A stretch of 28,257 nt of DNA. Origin: a virus. The stretch's first letter is position 1, and the number at the start of each line of letters is the position of its first letter. The notes beneath the pieces were generated by a model. It was not told the origin of the DNA, ran no database searches, and worked only from the letters and a program-made list of their open reading frames with translations. The translations under genes and the position numbers were made by a program. The stretch is taken from the IMG/VR virus record IMGVR_UViG_3300034418_012348, positions 1-28,257 of that record. One strand, 5' to 3'. Below, piece after piece: positions 11,636-25,802 of the stretch.

Positions 11636-14131
11636 ATGGCACGCACGGCTGCAGACTATAAGGACTGGCTTGACAAAAACCAGAATCAAAAAGGCAGTGA
11701 GCTTTTTAATAAGATAGAAAGAGCTTATACGCTCCAGTCACGAGAAGAGCAGGTAGCCCCTGATCTAGGCTTTTTTGGCAATATCCGTGAAGCTATTACA
11801 GGTGAGCAGCGCGCCACACTCGAGACAGAAACGCTACCGGAGTGGACGGGAATGCCTGAACTTAATCAGCTTTCCATGGCAAGTGCAAAGACAGGCCTTG
11901 GCACGTTACTGTCAAATCCTAAAGAAACTGTTCAAATTATTCAGGCAAACTTCCCTGGCGTTAAAGCACGCACGGACGAAAAGGGTAACTTCATATTAAA
12001 GTCGTCGATTGATGACAAGGAATACGCTATCCCGCCGGGTTTTAGCCTTGGCGATATTGGACGAGCTGCAGGGGCATTGGCTGCGTTTACCCCGGCTGGC
12101 CGGGCAGCAACCATCCCAGGCATGATCGGCGCTGCAGGGGCCACGCAACTTGGTATTGAGGCCACACAGCGACTTACCGGTGGCGACATAGATCCTGCGG
12201 AAGTTGCACTTGCTGCGGGTACAGCACCTGTTCTTCCTGTTGCTTCTGCGGCAGCTAAAGCAGTTGCACCAAAGGCAAAGGACCTTCTGAATAAACTCTT
12301 AGGTAAGCCGACTACCGCGAGCGGTAATCCGCCAATGAAAGAAGGTCTTTCTGCGGAAGAGCTCGCTGCAGCAGCTAGAAAAGCTTCTGCTGGAGGAGTA
12401 AGTACTGAAAGAAATATTAGAGTATTGACTGAAGAAGCTGCACCTGACGCAGCAACTTTGGCTGCGGCAGATCGCTTGGGCATATCACAACACTTGCAGC
12501 CTGATCATCTTACGACTAGTCAAGCATATCGAGAGCTTGCACAGGCCATTAAATCCGTTCCAGGATCGCAAGCTCGAGCCCTTGAAATACAAGGCTTGAA
12601 CGAGGTTGGTCAACGTGCTGCAACCATGGTGGATGAGCTCGGCGGAAGCTTTGATCTGTCTGCTTTGAATTCAGCAGCAAAGAACAGGCTCGAGGCGATC
12701 ACAACAAAACTCGAATCGCTTTCTAATAAGTTTTATGGAAAGGTCCGTGAACAGATGCCGGCCGGCGTAACAACGATGCCTGACCGTGTTCTTTCGTTCT
12801 TGGAAGCAAGGGCTGTTGAGCTGGGCGGGGAGAAGTTCTTGTCGCCCATGGAAAAAACAATCCTAAAACGGCTTCGCCCAACCACTCAAAAAGTGACCGT
12901 TAACGGCAAAACTTTTGATGAGGACATTTTCCCCACCTATGCTCTTCTGGACGATACCCGTAAGCTTGTTGGCAACGCAGCTCGACAGCAGGGCCTTTTT
13001 AAGGATGCTGACACGGGCTTAGCAAAGCTTTTGTATGGCCTTATTGAAGAGGATCAGCTAACAGTGGCCGCGGCCAATGGCGTTGATGGCGTATTAAAAG
13101 CAGCACAAAAAGCCGTGAAGCTTCGCAAAGGTTTGGAAGACGACATGATGTCGCTTTTTGGCAAGCAGCTTGACTCGAGTTTTGTCGGTCCTTTGACCAC
13201 TGGCGTTAAAGCTTTGCAGACTGGCGACGTTTCAAAGATGAAAAAGCTTTTGGATGCGTTGCCAAAGAGCATGCGTCCCAAAGCCATGGCCTCCGGGCTT
13301 ACAGTTGCTTTTGGTCGAGCAAATCAAAACGGTTTGTTAAATTTCAAGACTTATTCGGATTGGTATGAGGGCGTTCTTCGTAACAAGGAAGCTTATAACC
13401 TTGTAATGGGGAATCTTCCCGAAGCAGCTCGACAACAGCTTGGCGACTTGTACAAGGTTTCAAAGGGAATTATGAGCGCACAACGCGAGCAAATTGCCAC
13501 AGGCCGTCTCTTGGCTGTTAAGGATCTAATTAATGGTTCAGATAGCCTTATTGGCAATATCTTCCGAGTAGCCAAGCGCTCCATGGTCGGCATCCCTGTT
13601 GAAGCAGCGACAACCAACATGGGAATGCCTGGCGTGGGCCTTGCCTCCGGTATTACATCGGCGTTAACCAACCGGGCAAAGCCTGACGTGTTGAAGGCTG
13701 CCGATAACCTACTCACTTCGTCCACCTTCATGCAATTTCTGCAAAAGGTCGGTACAGCGGAGCAAGTTGACGCCGCACGTAGGTTGGCTAACTCTACCGT
13801 TTTCCGTCGATTTGCCAAGGAGCTAAAAGGTCCAAGGGACCCTGGGTTTTGGGAACAGTGGATACTCAATAGTGCTCAAACTGGTCGACAGTTCGGCGAA
13901 GCCGTAACCCCGGATGTTGAAGAAAGGCAGTTACCAGGTCCACAGTCTCGAGCACTCCCACCAGCACCACCCACGCGAGGTGTCCCAGGGCTCACGGACC
14001 AAGCACCAATGGCAGCGGGGCCTCAGGCTCCCGCAGGTGATCCTGGCCAGAGCAGGCAGATGTTGGCGTCGCTATTTCCGTTTGATCCAACTCTGCAAAT
14101 GGGTGGTCAGACGCCTCCGCCAGCAGCGTAG
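11636..14131 (+). CDS. Largest internal virion / ejection-type protein
   Basis: An 831-residue protein with ATG 11636 directly after the previous TAA. The N-terminus (to about 130) is soluble; 135-210 is Ala/Gly-rich and hydrophobic (GRAAGALAAFTPAGRAATIPGMIGAAGATQLGIEATQRL and AEVALAAGTAPVLPVASAAAKAV), a region that could form membrane-active helices; the remainder is long and helical with a Pro/Gln-rich tail ending PPPAA. Being last and largest in the structural run, it has the place of T7 gp16 or P22 gp16, but I see no transglycosylase catalytic motif. Its last 25 bases overlap the 3' end of the opposite-strand nuclease gene. Confidence 0.66.
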   Translation: MARTAADYKDWLDKNQNQKGSELFNKIERAYTLQSREEQVAPDLGFFGNIREAITGEQRATLETETLPEWTGMPELNQLSMASAKTGLGTLLSNPKETVQIIQANFPGVKARTDEKGNFILKSSIDDKEYAIPPGFSLGDIGRAAGALAAFTPAGRAATIPGMIGAAGATQLGIEATQRLTGGDIDPAEVALAAGTAPVLPVASAAAKAVAPKAKDLLNKLLGKPTTASGNPPMKEGLSAEELAAAARKASAGGVSTERNIRVLTEEAAPDAATLAAADRLGISQHLQPDHLTTSQAYRELAQAIKSVPGSQARALEIQGLNEVGQRAATMVDELGGSFDLSALNSAAKNRLEAITTKLESLSNKFYGKVREQMPAGVTTMPDRVLSFLEARAVELGGEKFLSPMEKTILKRLRPTTQKVTVNGKTFDEDIFPTYALLDDTRKLVGNAARQQGLFKDADTGLAKLLYGLIEEDQLTVAAANGVDGVLKAAQKAVKLRKGLEDDMMSLFGKQLDSSFVGPLTTGVKALQTGDVSKMKKLLDALPKSMRPKAMASGLTVAFGRANQNGLLNFKTYSDWYEGVLRNKEAYNLVMGNLPEAARQQLGDLYKVSKGIMSAQREQIATGRLLAVKDLINGSDSLIGNIFRVAKRSMVGIPVEAATTNMGMPGVGLASGITSALTNRAKPDVLKAADNLLTSSTFMQFLQKVGTAEQVDAARRLANSTVFRRFAKELKGPRDPGFWEQWILNSAQTGRQFGEAVTPDVEERQLPGPQSRALPPAPPTRGVPGLTDQAPMAAGPQAPAGDPGQSRQMLASLFPFDPTLQMGGQTPPPAA

Positions 14132-14793
14132 TACTGCTCGACCCGCTGCATCCATTCTTCTTTATAGCGCTTGAATTCACTACCGGTAGTGGTGAATTCC
14201 TGCGTGCTTCCGTCCTGAACAGCTACTAAAACCGCCCCAAAATCGATTGACGTTCCATGCACGATGTCATGGGCCATGGCATACGCTGCAAGCTGGTGGA
14301 AGTAGTCCTGGATCCATTTGACCTGCTTTGGTTTGACTGATTGCTTAAAGTCAACAATCGCCGGTTGACCACGGTAAACCCCAACAAAATCGGTCGTGCC
14401 TGCGTACTTGCCTGGGTAATAAAGCGTGACTTCTGATCCCCAAACCTCGTTAACCTCACATAAATAAGTGTTTACGAGCCTGTAACCCATCTCATAACCC
14501 TTCGTCTGGAGCCAAGTTGTGGGTCTGGGAAGATCCCTGGCCGCGAATAACCGCTCAATGACGTTGTGCATGTGCGTACCCACCGTGGCCGCTTCGTTTT
14601 TAATGCGCTCCGCGTTTTCTTTTCCAACCCTCTCGGCCCACGCATCAAGAGCAGCCTTGTCCTTTGTGGCGGACAGAATATGCGTCACGCTGGGCAGTTT
14701 TTGATTTCCGTAACGCCTACCTATCTCAGGGTCGTCCACCCGCTCGAGGGTTTCGTAAACAAACTTCTTCCTGGTTGGGATCAGATCAATCAT
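14107..14793 (-). CDS. PD-(D/E)XK superfamily nuclease (RecB/Cas4-like)
   Basis: A 228-residue protein on the minus strand. Motifs of the RecB/Cas4-type PD-(D/E)XK fold are visible: LPSVTHIL (33-40), GTHMHNVIE (72-80), E121 in SEVTLYY, D135 in AGTTDFVG, the D148-x-K150 pair in AIVDFKQS, and Q167-x3-Y171 in FHQLAAYA. It is expected to cut DNA, probably as an exonuclease in recombination, end processing or host DNA degradation. There is no cysteine cluster for an iron-sulfur centre. Its ATG overlaps the end of the helicase gene by eight bases (ATGATTGA), so the two are likely co-translated and may work together on DNA ends. Its stop lies inside the opposing late gene. Confidence 0.85.
   Translation of the reverse strand: MIDLIPTRKKFVYETLERVDDPEIGRRYGNQKLPSVTHILSATKDKAALDAWAERVGKENAERIKNEAATVGTHMHNVIERLFAARDLPRPTTWLQTKGYEMGYRLVNTYLCEVNEVWGSEVTLYYPGKYAGTTDFVGVYRGQPAIVDFKQSVKPKQVKWIQDYFHQLAAYAMAHDIVHGTSIDFGAVLVAVQDGSTQEFTTTGSEFKRYKEEWMQRVEQYYAAGGGV
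14173..14199. other. Hairpin-forming inverted repeat just past the late-gene stop
   Basis: GAATTCAC (14173-14180) and GTGAATTC (14192-14199) are exact reverse complements, and the centre holds the 14-base palindrome CACTACCGGTAGTG (14178-14191). The late transcript, 42 bases after its stop codon, could fold a roughly 10-pair stem with a small bulge. No T tract follows, so a classical intrinsic terminator is unlikely. It lies within the 3' part of the nuclease gene and encodes EFTTTGSEF there. Confidence 0.55.
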
Positions 14794-16246
14794 TTTTTAT
14801 CCAGTCTCTGGGGTCTTCTTGAAGGATGGTGTTAGCAATATCCATTTTGCTCACCAGGGCGTCGACGATCTTTTCGTCCACGGTTTTGGGTGTAAATAGG
14901 TCAATATATGTCATTTTTCTGGTTTGGCCATATCGGTCGATTCGTGCTTCGGATTGCAGCCGGATCTCCAGGTCATAACCGTTGGCGTAATAAATCATGG
15001 TATTGGCCGCGGTAAGTGTTAGGCCATAGCCCCCTGTTCGTGGCTGTCCAACAAAGAACCGCAGCTCACTGTTTGGATCTTGGAAACGCTCGACGATGTC
15101 GGACCGCTCTTCAGCGGCCGTATCACCAAAGTAAGTGGCCACCGAGTTCATGCCGTATTCCTTCTGCAAGGCAAGCTTGATCTCTTCGATGTTATGCCTA
15201 AAATGTGCCCAGATGATGACCTTGTCATCGGCCTCTTCAATGGCTGCCAAAAGCTCGTTCATGCGGTTGTTTTTTAGAGCAACCACTTCGCCTGTGTCCA
15301 GCGTGATGTGGCCACAAACAATCTGCTGCAGGCGCATGATCTGGGTTAAAGCATTCGTGGTGGACGTCATGCCCTTCTCAAAGGTGGCAAGCGCCATGAG
15401 CACCATCTGATCGTAGGCCTTCTTCTGTTCAGTAGTAAGTTCTACCTCACGTTTTAAGAAGGTCTTTTCTGGCAAATCAAAGCACTCGTCTTTCCGGACC
15501 CGGAAGGCAAATCGAGAAAGTTTCTCGTGGAGCTCATCAAGCCGGCGGTAGCCCACCACCTGCTTAAAGCTGTGAGTGCCAACATTGCGCTCGACCGTCA
15601 CAGCGTATCTGGCCAGAAAAGAGTAGTAACTGGGTACATTCAAACAGTTGGGAGACAGGAACTCGCACTGCGAGAATAGGTCCATCGGCGCCTTAGTCAC
15701 AGGCGAGCCGGTAGCAATACGTCGGTACTTCGCAAGCTTTCCCGCTTTAATCGTATTCTTGGTGCGCTTGGCCGTGTGCCCTTTGATCGTCGTGCTTTCA
15801 TCAACAGCAAAGAAAGCATTGTGAGAGTTTAAGAAGCGCTGAGCAAAGACGGTCCCCTTTTCCGTGCTGAAGGCTTCGATGTTCATGACCAGGATCTTTA
15901 GGTCTTCAGTGATCTCGAACAACGAATCAAGGGCCACGGCCTCCGCCCTTTTTGGCGACGGGTTCCAGATGGCCATGCGATATACGACATGGTCGGGAAT
16001 GTGTTTTGGTATTTCAAGCTTGAACCAGTTACGGTACACACCCTTTGGCGCAACAATTAATGCCGCATTAATGTGCCCCTGGTCGTAAAGCATCGCGATG
16101 TTGTTGATCAACATAAAGCTTTTGCCTGTACCAGTATCGGCAAACAGCGCACAAACAGGCTCTTTCCAGAAGCGCTGCAGGTAAGCCTGCTGATGCAAAA
16201 AAGGTTTATTCTTAAAAGGGTATGTGCCTAAGTACTTGTCTTCCAT
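14786..16246 (-). CDS. SNF2-like superfamily 2 helicase
   Basis: A 486-residue minus-strand protein with both RecA-like lobes of a SNF2-type SF2 ATPase: HQQ around 18-20, Walker A DTGTGKS (37-43), motif Ia LIVAPKG, Walker B DEST (149-152), motif III ATGSP (178-182), and in the second lobe TGGYGLTL (404-411) and motif VI QSEARIDRYGQ (431-441). Such phage enzymes translocate on double-stranded DNA or unwind or remodel it; the exact role is not known. AGAAAGGAAGAGC precedes the ATG on this strand, giving an AAGGA ribosome site. It is the first gene of a two-gene minus unit ending with the nuclease, and is divergent from the replication genes across an 80-base gap. Confidence 0.9.
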   Translation of the reverse strand: MEDKYLGTYPFKNKPFLHQQAYLQRFWKEPVCALFADTGTGKSFMLINNIAMLYDQGHINAALIVAPKGVYRNWFKLEIPKHIPDHVVYRMAIWNPSPKRAEAVALDSLFEITEDLKILVMNIEAFSTEKGTVFAQRFLNSHNAFFAVDESTTIKGHTAKRTKNTIKAGKLAKYRRIATGSPVTKAPMDLFSQCEFLSPNCLNVPSYYSFLARYAVTVERNVGTHSFKQVVGYRRLDELHEKLSRFAFRVRKDECFDLPEKTFLKREVELTTEQKKAYDQMVLMALATFEKGMTSTTNALTQIMRLQQIVCGHITLDTGEVVALKNNRMNELLAAIEEADDKVIIWAHFRHNIEEIKLALQKEYGMNSVATYFGDTAAEERSDIVERFQDPNSELRFFVGQPRTGGYGLTLTAANTMIYYANGYDLEIRLQSEARIDRYGQTRKMTYIDLFTPKTVDEKIVDALVSKMDIANTILQEDPRDWIKND

Positions 16247-16326
16247 GCTCTTCCTTTCTGGTGGACTTGCGTCCGAACTAGCGCTTAGTGTAACCTATGT
16301 CGTCATCTCTCAGAAAGGAGAAAGTT
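16247..16326. promoter_or_regulatory. Divergent intergenic region with candidate promoter and dyad
   Basis: This 80-base gap must serve the minus helicase/nuclease unit and the plus replication genes. On the plus strand TTGCGT (16267-16272) and TAACCT (16291-16296) are 18 bases apart, a poor sigma-70 match. Between them is an ACTA-N5-TAGT dyad (16277-16289). No convincing minus-strand promoter is seen. AGAAAGGAG (16312-16320) is the ribosome site for the next gene. Confidence 0.4.
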
Positions 16327-16671
16327 TTGTCAAAGGTATTTGTGGTCTCAGAGACCACGCAACACAACATTACTCCCGCCATGCAATACGGGGAAATCGT
16401 CACCATCCTTCCGCCTAACGCGCAGATTTTGTTTTCGGTAGCGCCTGCTGTGGCGCGGATCCAGCGCAAGCTCGAGAAGTTTTCAGACGACGATTATCTT
16501 GTCTTGATTGGCGATCCTTCTGCGATTGGTATAGTATGCTCAGCAGCAGCCGCTAAAAACAATGGTCGTTTTAAGCTGCTCAAGTGGGACAGGCGCGAAA
16601 AGCTTTACGTGCCCATCCAGGTTGATTTGTTCAAGAAAGGAGAATCGAATGACAATTACGAATTTGTTTGA
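16327..16671 (+). CDS. Conserved phage protein of unknown function, head of replication operon
   Basis: A 114-residue protein. TTG 16327 is chosen because AGAAAGGAG (16312-16320) lies six bases before it; an in-frame ATG at 16297 has no ribosome site and would put this sequence inside the gene. The product (SKVFVVSETTQHNITPAMQYGEIVTILPP..., FSDDDYLVLIGDPSAIGIVCSAAA, KLLKWDRREKLYVPIQVDL) matches a small protein often found at the start of replication clusters in podovirus-like environmental phages. The GDPSAIG segment (54-60 region) and the alternation of strands and helices suggest a compact alpha/beta fold, but no catalytic site is evident. The gene overlaps the next by 23 bases. Function unknown. 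Confidence 0.72.
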   Translation: MSKVFVVSETTQHNITPAMQYGEIVTILPPNAQILFSVAPAVARIQRKLEKFSDDDYLVLIGDPSAIGIVCSAAAAKNNGRFKLLKWDRREKLYVPIQVDLFKKGESNDNYEFV

Positions 16672-17200
16672 AGAAGACGCCGAAGCGTTAAAGGTTAAGG
16701 ACACGGACCTCGAAGGGCTTGCTGCACTTGCCCGGAGAGCGAAGGAACTTGCTGCAGAGATCGAGGACCTCGAATCAGTAGCAAAGGAGCGAAGCGAGCA
16801 GTACCGCAAGCTCACAGAAGAATCGATCCCTGAAGCCATGGCAGGCCTTGGCATGAAGTCATTCAAGCTTGCTGACGGATCTTCAATCGAAGTCAAACCG
16901 TTTTACAGCGCGAGCATTAGTGCCGCACGCAAGGCTGAGGCCTTCCAGTGGCTGCGCGAGAATGGCTTTGACGACATCATCAAAAATACCGTGAGCGTGC
17001 GTTTTGGCCGCGGTGAAGACGAGCTCTGTGTTCGTCTGCTGGATCTCCTCGGTACGCAAGGCTTTCCTGCTGAGCAAGCCGAGAAGGTGGAGCCCATGAC
17101 CTTGAAAGCATGGGTGAAAGAACAGGTCGAGCGTGGAAACGCTTTCCCTGCGGAGCTCTTTGGCGCCTTCATTGGCCAAAAAGCAACCATTAAATCTTGA
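16649..17200 (+). CDS. Conserved phage coiled-coil protein, replication module
   Basis: A 183-residue protein starting at ATG 16649 after AGAAAGGAGAA (16634-16644). The first 60 residues form a charged coiled coil (LARRAKELAAEIEDLESVAKERSEQYRKL), then a small conserved domain: IPEAMAGLGMKSFKLADGSSIEVKP (60-84), AFQWLRENGFDDIIKNTVSVRFGRGED (98-124), and MTLKAWVKEQVERGNAFPAELFGAFIGQKATIK (150-182). This layout is familiar from uncultured phages, always upstream of the SSB-like gene. It may bind DNA or the replication machinery; I cannot assign an activity. The gene ends 17 bases before the next ATG. Confidence 0.7.
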   Translation: MTITNLFEEDAEALKVKDTDLEGLAALARRAKELAAEIEDLESVAKERSEQYRKLTEESIPEAMAGLGMKSFKLADGSSIEVKPFYSASISAARKAEAFQWLRENGFDDIIKNTVSVRFGRGEDELCVRLLDLLGTQGFPAEQAEKVEPMTLKAWVKEQVERGNAFPAELFGAFIGQKATIKS

Positions 17201-17217
17201 TCAAAGGAAAACGAAAA

Positions 17218-17982
17218 ATGGCAAAGACAGACGTAGCAGTAAAACAAGAAGGTGCGCTCGCCTTGGTATCAACGTTTGAAGAGGACGCGCTTGCTGGTTT
17301 CGGTGAGATGAATCAGGAAGACTATGCGCTTCCGTTCCTTCGCTTGTTAACCAACACCTCGCCAGAGGTGGGCAGCATCGAAGGTGCAGTGCCCGGAATG
17401 ATTTACAACACAGTCACCAATGAGCTGTACGACGGTAAGAAGGGAATTGAAGTCATCCCCTGCGCTTACGTCAGGCAGTACATTGAGTGGGCTCCCCGCG
17501 GTTCAGGCAGCGGCGCTCCGATCCAGATTTACCCGGCGACGAGCGACATCTTGTCAAAAACCCACCGTGAGCCCGGTGACAACAAAGACTATCTCGATAA
17601 CGGCAACTACATCGAGAACACTGCTAATCACTACGTCATGATTATCGGTGATGACGGAGCTCCATCGCCTGCATTGATCTCAATGAAATCTACACAGCTC
17701 AAGAAGTCACGCAAGTGGAATTCAATGGCAATGTCGGTCAAGCTCCAGGGTAAAAACGGGCTGTACACACCTCCAATGTATTCGCAACTTTATCGACTAA
17801 CCACGGCCCAAGAATCAAACGACAAGGGCAAATGGTTTGGTTGGGAGATCGAGCGCATTGGGTCAGTTGATGATTTGAACGTATACCAATCTGCAAAAGC
17901 TTTTGCTGAGAGCATCAACTCCGGTGAAGTCAAGGTCAAGCACCAAGACGAAACCGAAGCTGATCAAAAAGTACCGTTCTAA
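17218..17982 (+). CDS. Probable single-strand DNA-binding protein
   Basis: A 254-residue protein; ATG 17218 is preceded by AAAGGA (17203-17208), better than the in-frame TTG at 17197. It has a beta-rich core with many aromatics (GMIYNTVTNELYDGKKGIEVIPCAYVRQYIEW, 60-91; ISMKSTQLKKSRKWNSM, 155-170) and an acidic, flexible end DETEADQKVPF. The acid-rich tail finishing in a Pro-Phe tip is the hallmark of bacterial SSB, whose tip recruits partner proteins. Its position before primase, helicase and polymerase fits. No closer family was recognised beyond a common uncultured-phage protein, so the SSB role is inference; a different replication accessory protein is possible. Confidence 0.55.
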   Translation: MAKTDVAVKQEGALALVSTFEEDALAGFGEMNQEDYALPFLRLLTNTSPEVGSIEGAVPGMIYNTVTNELYDGKKGIEVIPCAYVRQYIEWAPRGSGSGAPIQIYPATSDILSKTHREPGDNKDYLDNGNYIENTANHYVMIIGDDGAPSPALISMKSTQLKKSRKWNSMAMSVKLQGKNGLYTPPMYSQLYRLTTAQESNDKGKWFGWEIERIGSVDDLNVYQSAKAFAESINSGEVKVKHQDETEADQKVPF

Positions 17983-18028: not shown

Positions 18029-19555
18029 ATGGCCGACATAACTCGGTTCAAGGCGATTTTCTCCGGGCTGGATATCGCTCATGGAACCTACAAAATTGAA
18101 AGGACGAGAGGGGACGGGAAGCAGGATGGCCGCGGCATTGTCATCCGTAAACCGCCAACTGACGACCTTTGGCAGAAGCATTTGGATGGTGTCGAGCCTT
18201 CGCTTGGCATCATCCCTATTCGTGCCGACAACACGTGCATCTGGGGTTGCATTGACATTGATCAGTATCCCCTGGATCACAAAGGCCTGATTGAAAAGAT
18301 TAGAAGCTTGAAGCTCCCGCTCGTCGTTTGCCGAAGCAAAAGCGGTGGTGCTCATGCCTTTTTGTTTACCAAAGAGCCAGTGCCTGCTGGTTCAATGCAG
18401 GACTGCCTTAAGGCCTGCGCGGCATTATTAGGAGAGTCTGGCCGTGAAATATTCCCAAAACAGTCTGAAATTCTTGTCGATAAAGGCGATACCGGCAACT
18501 TTCTTAACCTGCCTTATTTTGCAGGTGGCGACGGGATGCGTTATGCCTTCAACGACGATGGCACAGCGGCGACGCTCGAACAATTCTACGAGCTCTACGA
18601 CCAGTACGTTCAGGATGGCGTTCCTGAGATAACTCCGCCCAAGCAGGCGGACCATCCGATTCCTGACGGGCCACCGTGCCTGCAGGCACTTTGTGCTCAG
18701 GGCTTTCCTGAAGGAACACGGAACAACGGCCTGTTTAACATTGGGATTTATCTTAAGAAGGCGCTGCCCAACGACTGGGACACAAAGCTGATGGAGTACA
18801 ACAATAAGTACTTCCACCCTCCGCTGACCTTAAGCGAGCTGCAGGTAATTGTTAAGCAGCTCACCAAAAAAGATTATCTGTACAAGTGTAAAGACGCACC
18901 GATCAAAAGCTTTTGTAACAGCGGTCTGTGTCGCACACGTAAGCACGGCATCGGCGCAAACGCACCAGATGCACCTCAGCTCGCCTCGTTATCGAAGTAC
19001 AACAGTGAGCCACCTGTTTGGTTTCTGGACGTCAATGGCCGTCGCCTTGAGCTCGACACGGACAGCCTTTACAACCAGACGCATTTCCAAAAGGCCTGCG
19101 TTGAGAAGATCAACATCCTGCCGCCGTCGCTTAGGAAGCAGGACTGGGAATCGATGCTCAATGCGCTGCTGGCTGAGATGGTCCAGACCGAGCAGATCCA
19201 CGAAGCTCCAGAGGACACGAGTATTACTGGCCGGTTTAACGACCTGTTGGAAGAGTTCACAACTCACCTGCAGCAGGCGCTTGATCGAGACGAGATCCTA
19301 ATGGGTCGCCCCTGGACGGATGACGTTGAGGCCAAGACTTACTTTCGATTCAAGGACCTCGAAGGGCACCTGAAACGAAACAACTTTATCGGCATGTCAC
19401 CCGGACGCATGGCACAGCGGGTACGTGATCTAGGCGGTGAACCATGCACCCTGTATTTAAAAGGCCGGCAAACCCGGTGCTGGAGAATACCAAAATTCGA
19501 GAAACAAGACGCACCATTTGAGACACCAGAGCAAGACAAAGTGAGCCCCTTCTAA
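18029..19555 (+). CDS. Archaeo-eukaryotic-type (AEP) primase
   Basis: A 508-residue protein starting at ATG 18029 after GAGAAAGAAAG. The AEP catalytic pattern is visible: D76-x-D78 in GCIDIDQYPLD, RSKSGGAH (102-109), FPKQSE (142-147) and GNFLNLPYF (156-164), the layout of the TOTE-system/primase-polymerase group. Next comes a primase C-terminal helical domain (EGTRNNGLFNIGIYLKK at 228-244 to KKDYLYKC) with a likely zinc site C287, C296, C301, H306. The last 200 residues contain no Walker motif, so there is no fused helicase. It likely makes primers for the phage polymerase. The extreme C-terminus PEQDKVSPF resembles an SSB tip. Separated from the SSB-like gene by a terminator. Confidence 0.8.
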   Translation: MADITRFKAIFSGLDIAHGTYKIERTRGDGKQDGRGIVIRKPPTDDLWQKHLDGVEPSLGIIPIRADNTCIWGCIDIDQYPLDHKGLIEKIRSLKLPLVVCRSKSGGAHAFLFTKEPVPAGSMQDCLKACAALLGESGREIFPKQSEILVDKGDTGNFLNLPYFAGGDGMRYAFNDDGTAATLEQFYELYDQYVQDGVPEITPPKQADHPIPDGPPCLQALCAQGFPEGTRNNGLFNIGIYLKKALPNDWDTKLMEYNNKYFHPPLTLSELQVIVKQLTKKDYLYKCKDAPIKSFCNSGLCRTRKHGIGANAPDAPQLASLSKYNSEPPVWFLDVNGRRLELDTDSLYNQTHFQKACVEKINILPPSLRKQDWESMLNALLAEMVQTEQIHEAPEDTSITGRFNDLLEEFTTHLQQALDRDEILMGRPWTDDVEAKTYFRFKDLEGHLKRNNFIGMSPGRMAQRVRDLGGEPCTLYLKGRQTRCWRIPKFEKQDAPFETPEQDKVSPF

Positions 19556-19570
19556 TGAAAGAGACCAACC

Positions 19571-21073
19571 ATGACCGTAAAGAAGATATTCGGGCCCCCA
19601 GGGACCGGCAAGACCACCTACCTGTTAAACACTGTTGAACAGGAGCTAGACCGAGGCATCATGCCGATGGACATTGGCTACTTTGCATTTACACGTAAGG
19701 CAGCCAACGAAGCAAAAGAGCGAGCAATCGCAAAGTTTCCGCAGCTCAACCCGGAAAAAGATTTTCCCTGGTTCAGGACCCTACACTCTCTGGCTTACAG
19801 ATGCCTGGGCATCACTCAAAAAGACATGATGTCGACCGAGCACTTCGACGAGTTTGCAAAGCTCGCAAGGCTTGACATGAAGGTGGAGGCCACCGACGAA
19901 GAAGAGGGTTTTATTAAGCATGACAACCCGATCCTTAACGAGATCAACCTCGCACGAATCAAAGGCGAAGACCTTCGAGCACACTACAACCGCAGCGACC
20001 TGAAGATCGAGTGGTACCACTTCGAGTTTGTTGAGCGGACCTACAGACAATACAAAGAAACACGTGGGCTTTTTGATTTCACCGACCTGCTTGAAAAGGT
20101 TGTATTAGAAAGCCACCGGCTGCCACAGCTTCAAACGTTGATCATTGACGAGGCACAGGACCTTTCCCGCCTGCAGTGGGACCTGGTCAAAGAGCTTGTA
20201 GCGCGTAGCGCCACAAGCTATATCGCAGGTGATGACGACCAGGCCATTTACAAATGGGCAGGCGCAGATGTCGACACCTTTCTTGATCTCCCTGGGGAAA
20301 CACTTGTTCTTTCACAAAGCTACCGTGTGCCTTCAAAGATCCACGAGCTCGCCGATCAAATCGTCGGTCGCATTCGCAAACGTCAGGACAAGTCTTGGAA
20401 CCCCAGGCAAGAAGAAGGCGCCATCCACTGGCACAACAAGTTTTATGACGTCGATATAGCTAACGGGGAGTGGCTGGTGCTTGCCTCTGCAAATTACCTG
20501 CTTAACCCTTTGCACAACTGGATTAAGTCAGAAGGCGTGCTGTTCGAGCGCCACGGCCATCGGAGCATCCCTGAGTCCGTCATGAGCGCCGTCATAGGGT
20601 GGGAGTCATTGCGCAAGGGTAAAGAAGTCCCTTTCAATGTGGTCTCCCACATCTACCAGTACATGAACTCGAATTATATCAAGCGGGGTTTTAAGAGCCT
20701 AAAAACCGCAGACCCGAGTGATCTGTACACCCTTGACAAATTAAAAAAAGATCACGGCCTTCTAACAGACGCGATATGGCATGAAGTCCTAACAAAGATT
20801 GGTGATGACAAGCGAGATTATTTAATTGCCTTACTTAAACGTGGTGTAAAGCTTTCATCAAAGGCACCTGTTAGACTATCCACGATTCACGGAGCAAAAG
20901 GGGGCGAGGCGGACAACGTTCTCTTCGTGACAGATCTGTCTTCAAAGTTTGCTTCTGAATACGACCGAAACCCTGACGACATGCACAGACTCGCTTACGT
21001 TGCAGTAACGCGAGCAAAAAAATCTTTGCATGTTGTTATGCCCGAATCAAATTGGAAAGGATTCAGGATTTGA
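19571..21073 (+). CDS. UvrD-like superfamily 1 DNA helicase
   Basis: A 500-residue SF1 helicase. Motifs in order: Walker A GPPGTGKTT (8-16), motif Ia FAFTRKAANEA (38-48), TLHSLAYR (70-77), Walker B IIDEAQD (191-197), motif III GDDDQAIYKWAGA (220-232), motif IV QSYR (249-252), motif V STIHGAKGGEADNV (437-450), motif VI YVAVTRAK (476-483). It is shorter than UvrD/Rep (about 700 residues), with reduced insert domains. It probably unwinds duplex DNA 3' to 5' ahead of the polymerase encoded next, since no DnaB-type helicase gene is in the window. ATG 19571 follows a weak GAAAGAGA. Its TGA overlaps the polymerase TTG start by three bases, in a four-base TTGA. Confidence 0.9.
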   Translation: MTVKKIFGPPGTGKTTYLLNTVEQELDRGIMPMDIGYFAFTRKAANEAKERAIAKFPQLNPEKDFPWFRTLHSLAYRCLGITQKDMMSTEHFDEFAKLARLDMKVEATDEEEGFIKHDNPILNEINLARIKGEDLRAHYNRSDLKIEWYHFEFVERTYRQYKETRGLFDFTDLLEKVVLESHRLPQLQTLIIDEAQDLSRLQWDLVKELVARSATSYIAGDDDQAIYKWAGADVDTFLDLPGETLVLSQSYRVPSKIHELADQIVGRIRKRQDKSWNPRQEEGAIHWHNKFYDVDIANGEWLVLASANYLLNPLHNWIKSEGVLFERHGHRSIPESVMSAVIGWESLRKGKEVPFNVVSHIYQYMNSNYIKRGFKSLKTADPSDLYTLDKLKKDHGLLTDAIWHEVLTKIGDDKRDYLIALLKRGVKLSSKAPVRLSTIHGAKGGEADNVLFVTDLSSKFASEYDRNPDDMHRLAYVAVTRAKKSLHVVMPESNWKGFRI

Positions 21074-22932
21074 CGCTGCCAATGTTTACAAGAAAAACCG
21101 AGTGGGTTCCTCCTCACAATTTTCCCGACCTATCACAAGCTGATGAAATTGCAATCGACCTTGAAACCTGTGATCCAAACATGGAAAGAATGGGCCCCGG
21201 CTGGGCTCGCAAAGACGGCTACATCGTTGGCTACGCATTCGCAGTCGACGGTTGGCGCGGTTATTATCCCGTGGCTCACGAAGGCGGTGGCAATATTGAC
21301 CGGCGCATAGTCGAGAACTTTGTCAGAAGGACGCTGGAGCTTCCCAACACGAAGGTGATGCATAACGCTGCCTACGACCTGGGGTGGCTACTGTCATCCG
21401 GATTTAAGGTCAATGGCCGCATCATCGACACCATGTTGGCCGCACCTTTGATCGACGAGAACCGCTTCTCTTATTCCCTTAACGCCCTGGGCTTTGATTA
21501 CCTCAAAGAAGTCAAGTCTGAGCAGGGACTAAAAGAGGCGGCTCACGACTTCAATGTGCACGCCAAGAAGGAGCTCTGGAAGCTGCCGGCCATGTATGTG
21601 GGTGACTACGCCGAGCAGGACGCGGCGCTCACGCTGAAGCTTTGGCAGCACTTCAAGACGGTCTTGCGCAAGGAAGAGGTGGAATCGATCTTTGACCTCG
21701 AAACAGAGCTGCTGCCGATTTTGGTCCATATAACGCTGAAAGGGATCCGTTTTGATTCACATAAAGCTCAAAAACTGATTACTGACATGCAGGATCGAGA
21801 GGAGCAACTGGGCAAAGATATCAAAAAGATATCTGGTCAGAAGGTCGACATCTGGGCTGCTGCAAGTATTGCATCTGCGTTCGATAAGCTTAAGATTGAG
21901 TATCCCAGGACCGAAAAAGGAGCTCCAAGCTTCACCCGAAGCTTTTTGGAAAGCCATGACCACCCCATTTCAAAACTCATTGTGGAATCTCGCGAACTTA
22001 ATAAGACAGCGGGTACATTCCTGGGACCCTATCTCGATCACGGAAGAAGTGATGGACGCATACACCCACACATTAATCAGCTCCGTTCAGATGACGGAGG
22101 TACTGTTACGGGCCGCCTCTCAATGGCAAACCCGAATCTTCAACAAGTACCTGCACGCCATGAAATCATCGGACCTCTCGTAAGGGGTCTGTTCCTACCT
22201 GAAGAGAACGAGCACTGGGCTGCCTGTGACTTCTCTTCCCAAGAGCCTCGGCTGCTGGTGCATTACGCCACCCTGCTCGATTTACCAGGTGCAGAGAAAA
22301 TGGCTCAGGCTTATCGCGACAACCCCGACACCGACTTTCACCAGATGGTGGCCGACATGGCCGGCATTCAACGTAAGCAGGCTAAAACAATTGGCCTTGG
22401 CCTGATGTACGGCATGGGCAAGAATAAGCTTGCCGACCAGCTTGATCTACCGGTAGATGAAGCCAGCGAGCTGATGACGACGTTTCACCAGAAAGTTCCG
22501 TTCCTGAAAGGCACCGTCAATGCTGTTATGAAGCGGATCGAGCACCCCGGATCAGGTGGATCGATCCGTACGTTGCTTGGTAGGAAGTGTCGGTTCCCGC
22601 TTTGGGAACCAACGCAATGGGGCGTAAACAAGGCCCTTCCATATGAACAAGCCGTTATGGAATACGGCCGAGCTATTAAGCGAGCGTTTACTTACAAGGG
22701 CCTTAATCGACTTATCCAGGGATCTGCTGCTGATCAGACAAAGGCCGCTATGGTGGCTCTTCATAAGGCTGGCTTCAATCTTCTGCTCCAGGTTCATGAC
22801 GAAATCGCTGTTTCAGTCTACTCCAAAGCAGATGCGCAAGCCGCGGCCGAAGTCATGAAAAACGCCGTCGAGCTCGAGGTCCCCAGCAAAGTGGATATTG
22901 AGCTTGGCCCAAGCTGGGGAGAGGCAGTATGA
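21070..22932 (+). CDS. polA: Family A DNA polymerase with 3'-5' exonuclease
   Basis: TTG 21070 is chosen: AAAGGA (21056-21061) lies eight bases before it and it forms a TTGA overlap with the helicase stop; an in-frame TTG at 21052 or ATG at 21082 are alternatives. The 620-residue protein has proofreading motifs IDLET (29-33), NAAYDL (99-104) and YAEQD (180-184), then the polymerase: TGRLSMANPNLQQVP (347-361), motif A DFSSQEPR (387-394), motif B RKQAKTIGLGLMYG (435-448) and motif C VHDE (575-578). It lacks a 5'-3' exonuclease domain, as in T7-like enzymes. L443 replaces the Phe/Tyr at E. coli position 762. It is the replicative polymerase, next to primase and SF1 helicase genes. Confidence 0.95.
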   Translation: MTLPMFTRKTEWVPPHNFPDLSQADEIAIDLETCDPNMERMGPGWARKDGYIVGYAFAVDGWRGYYPVAHEGGGNIDRRIVENFVRRTLELPNTKVMHNAAYDLGWLLSSGFKVNGRIIDTMLAAPLIDENRFSYSLNALGFDYLKEVKSEQGLKEAAHDFNVHAKKELWKLPAMYVGDYAEQDAALTLKLWQHFKTVLRKEEVESIFDLETELLPILVHITLKGIRFDSHKAQKLITDMQDREEQLGKDIKKISGQKVDIWAAASIASAFDKLKIEYPRTEKGAPSFTRSFLESHDHPISKLIVESRELNKTAGTFLGPYLDHGRSDGRIHPHINQLRSDDGGTVTGRLSMANPNLQQVPARHEIIGPLVRGLFLPEENEHWAACDFSSQEPRLLVHYATLLDLPGAEKMAQAYRDNPDTDFHQMVADMAGIQRKQAKTIGLGLMYGMGKNKLADQLDLPVDEASELMTTFHQKVPFLKGTVNAVMKRIEHPGSGGSIRTLLGRKCRFPLWEPTQWGVNKALPYEQAVMEYGRAIKRAFTYKGLNRLIQGSAADQTKAAMVALHKAGFNLLLQVHDEIAVSVYSKADAQAAAEVMKNAVELEVPSKVDIELGPSWGEAV

Positions 22933-22985
22933 TGGGGGCAGACGTAGTGGTGTTTTCTCTCCTCCTCCCTGGGTCACAGGGTTAG
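22933..22985 (+). other. Short non-coding tail with minor hairpin
   Basis: After the polymerase stop there is a pyrimidine-rich stretch and a weak hairpin, CCCTG (22967-22971) with CAGGG (22977-22981), just before the strong terminator. No gene is seen. Confidence 0.4.
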
Positions 22986-23009
22986 CCCCGCACATGCGGG
23001 GTTTTTTTT
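22986..23009 (+). terminator. Strong intrinsic terminator after the polymerase gene
   Basis: CCCCGC (22986-22991) pairs with GCGGGG (22996-23001) around ACAT, followed by eight T residues (23002-23009). This is a textbook Rho-independent terminator that ends the replication operon and insulates the downstream early cluster. Confidence 0.92.
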
Positions 23010-23016
23010 CGCCTGC

Positions 23017-23045
23017 TTGCACTACCGGTAGCATGTATGTTAGAT
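23017..23045 (+). promoter_or_regulatory. Candidate sigma-70 promoter of the small-gene cluster
   Basis: TTGCAC (23017-23022) and TTAGAT (23040-23045) are separated by 17 bases, the ideal spacing for a host sigma-70 promoter. It lies directly after a strong terminator and before the first gene of a long same-strand cluster, where a promoter is required. Confidence 0.6.
23022..23031. promoter_or_regulatory. Candidate operator palindrome inside the promoter
   Basis: CTACCGGTAG is a perfect 10-base palindrome that begins at the last base of the -35 element and fills part of the spacer. A protein bound here would block RNA polymerase. The next gene encodes a ribbon-helix-helix protein, a family that binds short palindromic operators and often represses its own gene. 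Confidence 0.45.
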
Positions 23046-25123: not shown

Positions 25124-25326
25124 ACCAACCGGTCACGGTCTTGAGCTTTGCGCGCAAGCACGAAATCACTTTTGAGATGGCACAGGCCAAGCTTGAGGAT
25201 CTGATTGCCAATGGCAAGATGATCAAGGCGAGAATGCCGAACGGCCGTACTTACTACGTGAGCACTGCGCCAGAGATCAAGGCCCACGACCCTTTTAACC
25301 TTTGTAATACAGGAGAAAGCGAATGA
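25120..25326 (+). CDS. Small winged-helix-like DNA-binding protein (probable)
   Basis: A 68-residue protein; ATG 25120 overlaps the previous TGA. A helix-turn-helix-like unit VLSFARKHEITFEMAQAKLEDLIANGKMIKARM (7-39) followed by a beta hairpin GRTYYVST looks like a minimal winged helix (compare typical wing sequences with a conserved aromatic). It ends with KAHDPFNL, shared with the protein encoded at 25972. It probably binds DNA or an RNA polymerase subunit, but this is inferred from fold only. Confidence 0.55.
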   Translation: MNQPVTVLSFARKHEITFEMAQAKLEDLIANGKMIKARMPNGRTYYVSTAPEIKAHDPFNLCNTGESE

Positions 25327-25802
25327 CTACGGTGAAAATACCTGCTAATAAAAAGTGGCTTTGGGAAATATCACCAAACGCTAGATTAAGTGCAAAAGAT
25401 GTTGCTGATCTGTTGGAGTATGAGAGCCCCGGCCAAATCTACTATCTCGTTAGTAGAAATAAATTTCCAAAGCCAATGTCTTCTCCTTTTACTTCAGGCC
25501 AAATAATGATTAGAAGGAAATATTGGTCAGTTGATGACATAAAAAGAGAGGTGATAAAGCGTTTTGCTACCGATGACTTTGTTGACAAGAATGGAACGCT
25601 TAACACAAAAGAAGCAGCAAGGCTGCTTGGGCTTTCCACAGGAACGTTGTACAACGACAGAAGATCTGGTCATTTCGGAATACCTTACGTCCGTGTGGGC
25701 TACAGAACAGTTATTTACCAGAAAAAAGATCTTCTTGAGTGGATAGATAAACACAAAAAAATTGGTGGGAAATCGATTAAAGAGACAGGAGAAAGACTAT
25801 GA
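25323..25802 (+). CDS. Tandem HTH (AlpA/excisionase-like) DNA-binding protein
   Basis: A 159-residue protein with two helix-turn-helix units. The C-terminal one (93-141: LNTKEAARLLGLSTGTLYNDRRSG, then IPYVRVGYRTVIYQKKDLLEWI) matches the HTH_17/excisionase pattern. The N-terminal one (22-78: LSAKDVADLLEYESPGQIYYLVSRNKFPKP, then KYWSVDDIKREV) has the same layout, so the gene seems to be a duplicated domain. Such proteins act as excisionases, AlpA-type regulators or DNA-bending factors. ATG 25323 is in an ATGA junction. The gene is visibly more A+T-rich than its neighbours, which hints at separate origin. Confidence 0.72.
   Translation: MTTVKIPANKKWLWEISPNARLSAKDVADLLEYESPGQIYYLVSRNKFPKPMSSPFTSGQIMIRRKYWSVDDIKREVIKRFATDDFVDKNGTLNTKEAARLLGLSTGTLYNDRRSGHFGIPYVRVGYRTVIYQKKDLLEWIDKHKKIGGKSIKETGERL

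Follow-up and report, generated by a model that had tools for sequence, protein, structure and literature searches.

The inverted locus and its relatives

We analysed the 28,257-base virus record IMGVR_UViG_3300034418_012348 (positions 1 to 28,257, hereafter the window), in which two minus-strand genes, an SNF2-type helicase and a PD-(D/E)XK nuclease, separate the late genes from the replication genes. Both open reading frames (ORFs) were found on the minus strand where an earlier note had placed them, with the overlap of eight nucleotides (nt) that it had reported. The pair and the candidate promoter element in front of it are listed here.

14786 to 16246, minus strand: SNF2-family (SF2) ATPase/translocase, 486 amino acids (aa), assigned by Pfam, PHROGs, motifs and model fold
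14107 to 14793, minus strand: PD-(D/E)XK RecB-type exonuclease resembling MGME1, 228 aa, with H76, D135, D148-x-K150, Q167-x3-Y171 and W52
14786 to 14793, minus strand: overlap of helicase stop and nuclease start, 8 nt
16287 to 16296, both strands: predicted -10 element AnnnTAnnnT, symmetric and shared by both operons; the helicase strand reads AGGTTACACT

The 8-nt overlap suggests translational coupling of the two genes. In a first set of 80 viral contigs fetched by the helicase (helicases 62-90% identical), the nuclease lay next to the helicase on the same strand in 79, and the 80th contig ends inside the helicase. The earlier note had set against its view of a unit the prospect that related phages would always carry the two genes separately and in different contexts; in these near relatives the two stood together, and separation was confined to some of the deeper ones. 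The gap between them was 10 nt or less in 72 of the 79 loci, with a 13-nt overlap in 60 and one 30-nt gap. The gp32-like gene stood divergently upstream of the helicase in 77 of 79 loci, the other two contigs ending before gp32, and a late gene was labelled convergent downstream of the nuclease in 64. As a control for fetching by a member of the pair, 80 loci each were fetched by primase and by gp34; the three contig sets share contigs. In loci with room, the helicase was divergent beside gp32 in 62/62 (primase-fetched) and 68/68 (gp34-fetched), and the nuclease was next to the helicase in 54/54 and 61/61; 18 of 80 and 12 of 80 loci, respectively, went unjudged through too little room or the lack of a gp32/gp33 label. 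Four phage-like contigs binned in metagenome-assembled genomes (L299-L302) had the gene order of the window. Their titles name Verrucomicrobia and Armatimonadetes, which are probable binning errors or host hints.

The junction between helicase and nuclease held an HNH-type ORF in six of the 79 loci (L013, L014, L015, L017, L018 and L021). Three of the six were profiled, and they matched phrog_3377 at 3.7e-45 or better. In five of the six, inspection by eye showed a GACATGTG...CACATGTC-type inverted repeat before this ORF, just past the helicase stop.

The genes flanking the pair in the window are as follows.

11636 to 14131, plus strand: last late gene, convergent with the nuclease; its counterpart in phage DSL-LC04 is annotated 'DNA transfer protein'
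14107 to 14131, both strands: convergent overlap of the 3' ends of the nuclease and the last late gene, 25 nt
16327 to 16671, plus strand: Pam3 gp32-like gene, first of the replication operon (Pfam; predicted start)
16649 to 17200, plus strand: Pam3 gp33-like gene (DUF7307; start by homology)
17197 to 17982, plus strand: Pam3 gp34-like gene (Pfam)
18029 to 19555, plus strand: AEP-type primase (Pfam, PHROGs)
19571 to 21073, plus strand: UvrD/Rep-type SF1 helicase (Pfam, PHROGs)
21052 to 22932, plus strand: family A DNA polymerase (PolA) with 3'-5' exonuclease domain (Pfam)

The pair thus sits between late and replication modules as previously described, with the late gene ending at 14131 on one side and gp32, gp33, gp34, the AEP primase, the UvrD-type helicase and PolA on the other. 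That these are the only minus-strand genes also holds by ORF content (ORFs of at least 60 aa, less than 60% covered by plus-strand ORFs); the leftover minus-strand ORFs are one of 77 aa within the nuclease gene and one of 73 aa at 22813-23034. The 25-nt overlap at the 3' end of the nuclease is absent from the earlier note, and a convergent overlap of 4-55 nt recurred in 55 of the 70 loci in which both genes were labelled on opposite strands. A search for intrinsic terminators between 13800 and 16700 found 4 sites against 3.4 expected.

Across deeper clades, gene order indicates that it is mostly the helicase that keeps its place and the nuclease that moves. In the L094 clade, 67 of the 68 loci with room have a helicase divergent from the replication genes. 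Helicase and nuclease there lie tail-to-tail on opposite strands in 72 of 80 contigs, and the remaining eight hold at most 416 nt past the helicase. HTVC023P is likewise tail-to-tail, with the nuclease at 58741-59409 on the plus strand and the helicase match at 59405-60805 on the minus strand. The helicase was divergent from the replication genes in all 72 loci with room in the 023Pt clade, where the nuclease was not beside it in any of the 53 loci with downstream room. HTVC027P and 023Pt carry the nuclease at ~14.0 and ~11.9 kb, respectively, on the early-gene strand, and contig L089 has it between uvrD and polA.

The earlier note had proposed that the unit might be a transferable cassette, which would have inserted between the late and replication modules. 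An orientation opposite to both modules is in keeping with this, as is the entry of an HNH-type ORF into the junction, but all examined near relatives with room, contigs fetched without the pair among them, had it at the same site beside gp32, and helicase distances follow those of uvrD, gp32 and polA (rho 0.54-0.63). Neither patchy presence nor joint transfer was found: the nuclease changes place without the helicase in other clades while the helicase, as a rule, remains head-to-head with the replication genes, which argues against a cassette. We therefore consider a cassette extremely unlikely.

An MGME1-like exonuclease and an SNF2-family ATPase

The Pfam match of the nuclease, PDDEXK_1, was barely above the cut-off (7.9e-5), and its PHROGs match was phrog_298 exonuclease (1.6e-49). 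The RecB motifs His (Ia), D (II), DxK (III) and QhxxY (IV) are present, and H76, D135, D148, K150, Q167 and Y171 were invariant in 29/29 aligned nucleases. When a profile of 33 nuclease relatives was compared with all Protein Data Bank (PDB) sequences, human MGME1 came first (2.4e-21) and the next match, named polysaccharide lyase, followed at 3.3e-4; the window nuclease as a single sequence reached MGME1 at 3e-11. Its structural model (mean predicted local distance difference test score, pLDDT, 94.9) matched MGME1 in Foldseek at 6e-12, with a template modelling (TM) score of 0.71 by query and 0.81 by target, ahead of a putative exonuclease (2.3e-5) and RecE (1.7e-4). By sequence and by modelled fold, human MGME1 is the nearest solved structure. 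W52, which corresponds to the MGME1 pin residue Trp152, was invariant in 33/33 aligned nucleases. In published work MGME1 acts as an exonuclease on single strands, can cut both 5' and 3' flaps and has the mitochondrial polymerase as an interaction partner; flap removal when replication ends is its proposed task (PMC6237815, PMC9460513; papers cited by PMC number are drawn on here from partial text).

The helicase is an SNF2 family member with SNF2 N-terminal and Helicase_C domains and intact motifs. It matched SNF2-rel_dom (1.5e-21) and Helicase_C (1.1e-9) in Pfam and phrog_62 helicase (1.9e-115) in PHROGs, and the GTGK, DE, TGxP and QSExRxxRxGQ columns were invariant in 21/21 aligned relatives. 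Its best solved relative by profile was a Sulfolobus SNF2/Rad54-type enzyme (2.4e-49), and the model, of middling confidence (pLDDT 82, predicted TM score 0.63), matched the folds of SNF2h, ISW1 and Sulfolobus SWI2/SNF2. SNF2 enzymes are translocases, and what they do in phages has been described as unknown (PMC9069017). By family, the window protein is probably a double-strand DNA translocase of the kind that moves without unwinding, for which a role in fork or branch remodelling may be supposed.

Ratios of nonsynonymous to synonymous substitution (dN/dS) against four close relatives were 0.040-0.055 for the helicase and 0.076-0.091 for the nuclease, compared with 0.039-0.087 for replication genes and 0.205-0.381 for two late genes among the genes that could be compared; these ratios are rough because synonymous sites are near saturation. 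As judged by them, helicase and nuclease are under purifying selection, with dN/dS akin to that of replication genes.

The window PolA matched only 3'-5' exonuclease and polymerase domains in Pfam. The 5' nuclease domain PF02739 was found in 0/4 related complete genomes, in a search that did not extend to FEN-, RNase H-type and other 5' nuclease families. A PolA without a 5' nuclease domain would need a separate flap nuclease, a need that T7 meets with gp6 (PMC9069017). Of the DNA-end-processing role that the earlier note had offered for the pair, the nuclease's share gains support from its MGME1 homology and replication context. The gp6 of the T7-like cyanophage P-SSP7 was considered as a member of the same nuclease family and ruled out, as it belongs to phrog_107 and not phrog_298. 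Separately, the window polymerase (21052-22932) scored 319.8 bits against the NCBIfam model for the aminoadenine-incorporating polymerase DpoZ, whose cut-off is 500, and at most 269.3 against PolA models.

The earlier note had also raised a motor coupled to a nuclease. Taken further, helicase and nuclease would act as a single complex with an effect like that of AddAB/RecBCD, either breaking down host DNA or resecting ends. Overlapping genes, co-conservation in the window clade and the RecB-type motifs of the nuclease agree with it. We compared evolutionary distances in 37 of 82 loci, those left after requiring sufficient length in all seven genes (52 loci) and then removing near-copies, using 13 gene pairs in each of three sets (37, 31 and 25 loci) and 499 shuffles. 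Raw nuclease-helicase correlations favoured a complex in the two subsets, with rho 0.50 in 31 loci and 0.63 in 25 (partial 0.25, p 0.002), but the partial correlation in the 31 loci was -0.02, and the 37 loci gave rho 0.21 and partial -0.09 (p 0.86). The nuclease is also located elsewhere in other clades, and the motor is an SNF2 protein of SF2, not of the SF1 type of AddA/RecB. We thus regard a motor-nuclease complex as unlikely: the two genes are coupled in arrangement, but the distances do not establish a stable complex of their products.

The strongest link of the nuclease was with gp33: over the 37 loci rho was 0.66, and the partial correlation, controlling for every other gene, was 0.60 (p 0.002). 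This link persisted in the subsets of 31 (partial 0.41, p 0.002) and 25 loci (partial 0.37, p 0.004). Plain linkage does not explain it, because the helicase and gp32 lie between the two genes; it could come from the shared history of two genes that were not exchanged. We treat it as exploratory because 13 pairs were compared in three sets with 499 shuffles. The possibility that gp33 is a Mu Gam-like end protector was rejected, a profile comparison with Mu Gam giving a probability of 0.8%. The Gam-type PHROG hit was weak (0.0039 for the window member; E ≤ 1 in 2 of 17 members), and the Gam-type name comes from annotators' labels in DSL-LC04 and one Burkholderia phage; we do not claim gp33 as Gam.

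A role in defence or counter-defence, likewise raised previously, or in superinfection exclusion would account for the best PADLOC match of the helicase, ZorD (1e-41). That match spans only the SNF2 core (profile positions 453-885 of 908), and the NCBIfam ZorD model gave 59.6 bits against a cut-off of 1500, so the protein is not a full-length ZorD; Zorya partner genes were not sought by name. The Cas4 match reached only 1e-4. PADLOC, run on 10 neighbouring proteins, also matched the UvrD-type helicase to RTasHel (1.6e-28) and GajB (5.7e-24), PolA to RTasPolA (1.7e-18) and a helix-turn-helix (HTH) protein at 25323-25802 to mad1 (3.3e-11), and the Pfam match of the primase is the TOTE-conflict AEP model, but the neighbour matches reflect general helicase, polymerase and HTH domains. 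Presence of the pair was not patchy: no examined relative with room lacked it, whether fetched by the helicase, by primase or by gp34. With matches confined to a shared core or very weak, a defence role is very unlikely.

Relatives of the nuclease also occur in bacterial chromosomes. A scan with the nuclease alignment, taking one genome per species, gave at least 588 relatives, of which 80 were kept. In 68 of these the neighbours include rmuC, exonuclease I or hisG, and all three in 54; these loci (L304, L309, L312, L313 and L315-L378) are titled Pelagibacter, Pelagibacteraceae or Pelagibacterales and lie on contigs of up to 966 kb. One of them, L374, has the order hisG, rmuC, nuclease, exonuclease I. 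Of the remaining kept relatives, eight carry genes of the window phage group and four neither. The nuclease was found in 19 of 58 further genomes of the SAR11 order and, in a wider sample of the class, in 2 of 289 genomes, both from the SAR11 order. The rmuC and exonuclease I neighbours point to a use in repair or recombination in SAR11. Sixty-nine chosen rows were placed in a tree, where the 18 taken from the 68 SAR11 loci formed one clade (support 100) inside a group (98) with two HTVC027P-type phage nucleases; the root is at the midpoint, for drawing only, and L136 has no sequence in it, its nuclease lying beyond that stretch. The tree fits a single entry of the nuclease from phage into SAR11, with a direction that it does not prove.

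A wider history can be offered tentatively, although we would not expect it to hold in full. Phage, SAR11 and MGME1 nucleases would be one phage-spread family, domesticated once in SAR11, and MGME1 would have joined mitochondrial replication from the same pool, entering alongside the T7-like polymerase, helicase and RNA polymerase; the phage nuclease would work with gp33, not with its operon partner. Among the papers listed in searches of a limited collection, and in the text drawn on here, none tied MGME1 to a phage origin.

A candidate bidirectional promoter for both operons

Sixty-three distinct helicase-gp32 intergenic regions out of 80 were aligned. In gapless register, A86, T90 and A91 occurred in 63/63 regions, A93 in 62 and T95 in 60, so that AnnnTAnnnT was complete in 60. 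This element reads TAnnnT, the pattern of a sigma70 -10 box, on both strands, the two boxes overlapping. Counting from these boxes, the predicted starts in the window are 16280 (minus) for the helicase and 16303 (plus) for gp32, 23 bp apart, where a bidirectional sigma70 promoter calls for divergent starts 7-25 bp apart. A simple sigma70 scan, which was not supplied with the alignment and did not include the window, put the starts 23 bp apart in 24 of 64 distinct regions, more often than at any other distance (next value 5/64). Two overlapping promoters were also found in the L094 clade, where they were 33 bp apart with scores of 9-12 of 12 in 26 of 37 regions. Published bidirectional promoters most commonly have starts 18 bp apart, with 10 and 23 bp also common (PMC12825309), and the Grainger group stresses positions -7 and -11 (PMC12825309, PMC10268837).

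The AGTGTACACT-like element might instead be the operator of a regulator, or a promoter for gp32 only, with the helicase transcript starting elsewhere. Its commonest form is palindromic, and the gp32 -10 box by itself accounts for columns 86, 90 and 91, which do not vary. The helicase direction alone, however, requires columns 93 and 95, and at 98% and 95% these are the best conserved of the 17 gp32-spacer columns. The letters also vary as they do in -10 boxes (TACACT, TAGACT, TATACT, TACAAT), and by eye the three regions without T95 have an alternative TAnnnT within 7 nt. On this evidence an operator or a gp32-only promoter is improbable.

Ribosome sites of the AGAAAG/AGAAAGG type precede both operons, that of gp32 and that of the helicase. 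A 16S tail ending CUCCUUUCU would be their pairing partner. We take such a tail to be typical of Betaproteobacteria; with that assumption, the AGAAAGG-type sites suggest a betaproteobacterial host, the virus record itself naming none. The start of gp32 is probably the TTG at 16327, after AGAAAGGAG, rather than the ATG at 16297, because the ATG lies upstream of the predicted transcript start.

The interpretation we favour, and think reasonably probable, is that the pair forms a leftward early operon for replication and DNA-end processing, and that this operon and the replication operon have a bidirectional promoter in common. One sigma70 promoter with overlapping -10 boxes, conserved as sequence, would switch on both operons. 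A PolA that lacks the 5' nuclease domain would leave 5' flaps and single-stranded ends, and these the MGME1-like exonuclease would most likely trim; the SNF2 protein would probably remodel or clear branched or protein-bound DNA during replication or recombination, and the overlap of their genes would keep their expression together.

Several observations weigh against this interpretation. The 023Pt clade has no common start distance (the commonest occurred in 9 of 52 regions, 23 bp in 3), a general consensus promoter scan lists no site at the window element, and the 10-mer with up to two mismatches is not rare in the window (5 found, 8.06 expected). The helicase-side -35 is poor, TTTCTN in most regions, and T95 is absent in 3 of 63. 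The MGME1 unwinding pin is only half kept, with A69 at the place of Phe173 (counted along the alignments with His180 as anchor). The phage ct3Et533 has a comparable replication module that lacks the nuclease, and its helicase shares the strand of the replication genes. Finally, SAR11 genomes also carry a full PolA-type 5' nuclease (5/5 tested); because the two coexist, primer removal would not be the only use of the SAR11 nuclease.

If the interpretation is correct, a shared two-way promoter explains the odd orientation of the pair: replication and end-processing genes are turned on at one point, and the two polymerase orientations exclude each other there. The homology links a large set of exonucleases from aquatic phages, so far uncharacterised, to a mitochondrial enzyme that is well studied, making their substrate preference and mechanism directly testable. 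It also leads one to ask if phages were the source of the exonuclease in SAR11 bacteria and mitochondria.

Comparison with known systems

In the literature covered, much of it as partial text, the combination of a conserved inverted placement, a symmetric promoter and an MGME1-like nuclease appears new, and its parts are known families. Phage DSL-LC04 has the same gene order and orientation, with 69% identity in the helicase and 72% in the nuclease; it differs in its 13-nt overlap, compared with 8 nt in the window, and its replication proteins are 63-78% identical. The HTVC023P-type pelagiphages (HTVC023P, HTVC027P and 023Pt) share the inverted SNF2 helicase between late and replication modules, the primase-UvrD-PolA order and a nuclease of the same family, but their nuclease lies outside the helicase operon, convergent in HTVC023P and kilobases away in HTVC027P and 023Pt. 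The available part of a paper on these phages contains no words starting 'nuclease' or 'promoter' (PMC9599517).

SNF2 with UvrD and a Leu762-type PolA is an abundant combination in the virioplankton (PMC6302109, PMC9069017). The window resembles those modules in combining SNF2 with UvrD and PolA, whereas the available text on them does not describe the inverted placement, a nuclease of the window type or the promoter. With human MGME1 the window nuclease shares the RecB-type motifs, the whole-domain fold, the pin residue (W152, here W52) and a setting beside a family A DNA polymerase; identity is ~25%, the second pin residue is changed, and the phage gene is known from sequence and model. The candidate promoter resembles the bidirectional promoters described in Escherichia coli and Salmonella by Warman, Grainger and colleagues, in which -10 elements overlap and 23 bp is among the common start distances; here it is known as a conserved sequence between two phage operons, with predicted starts.

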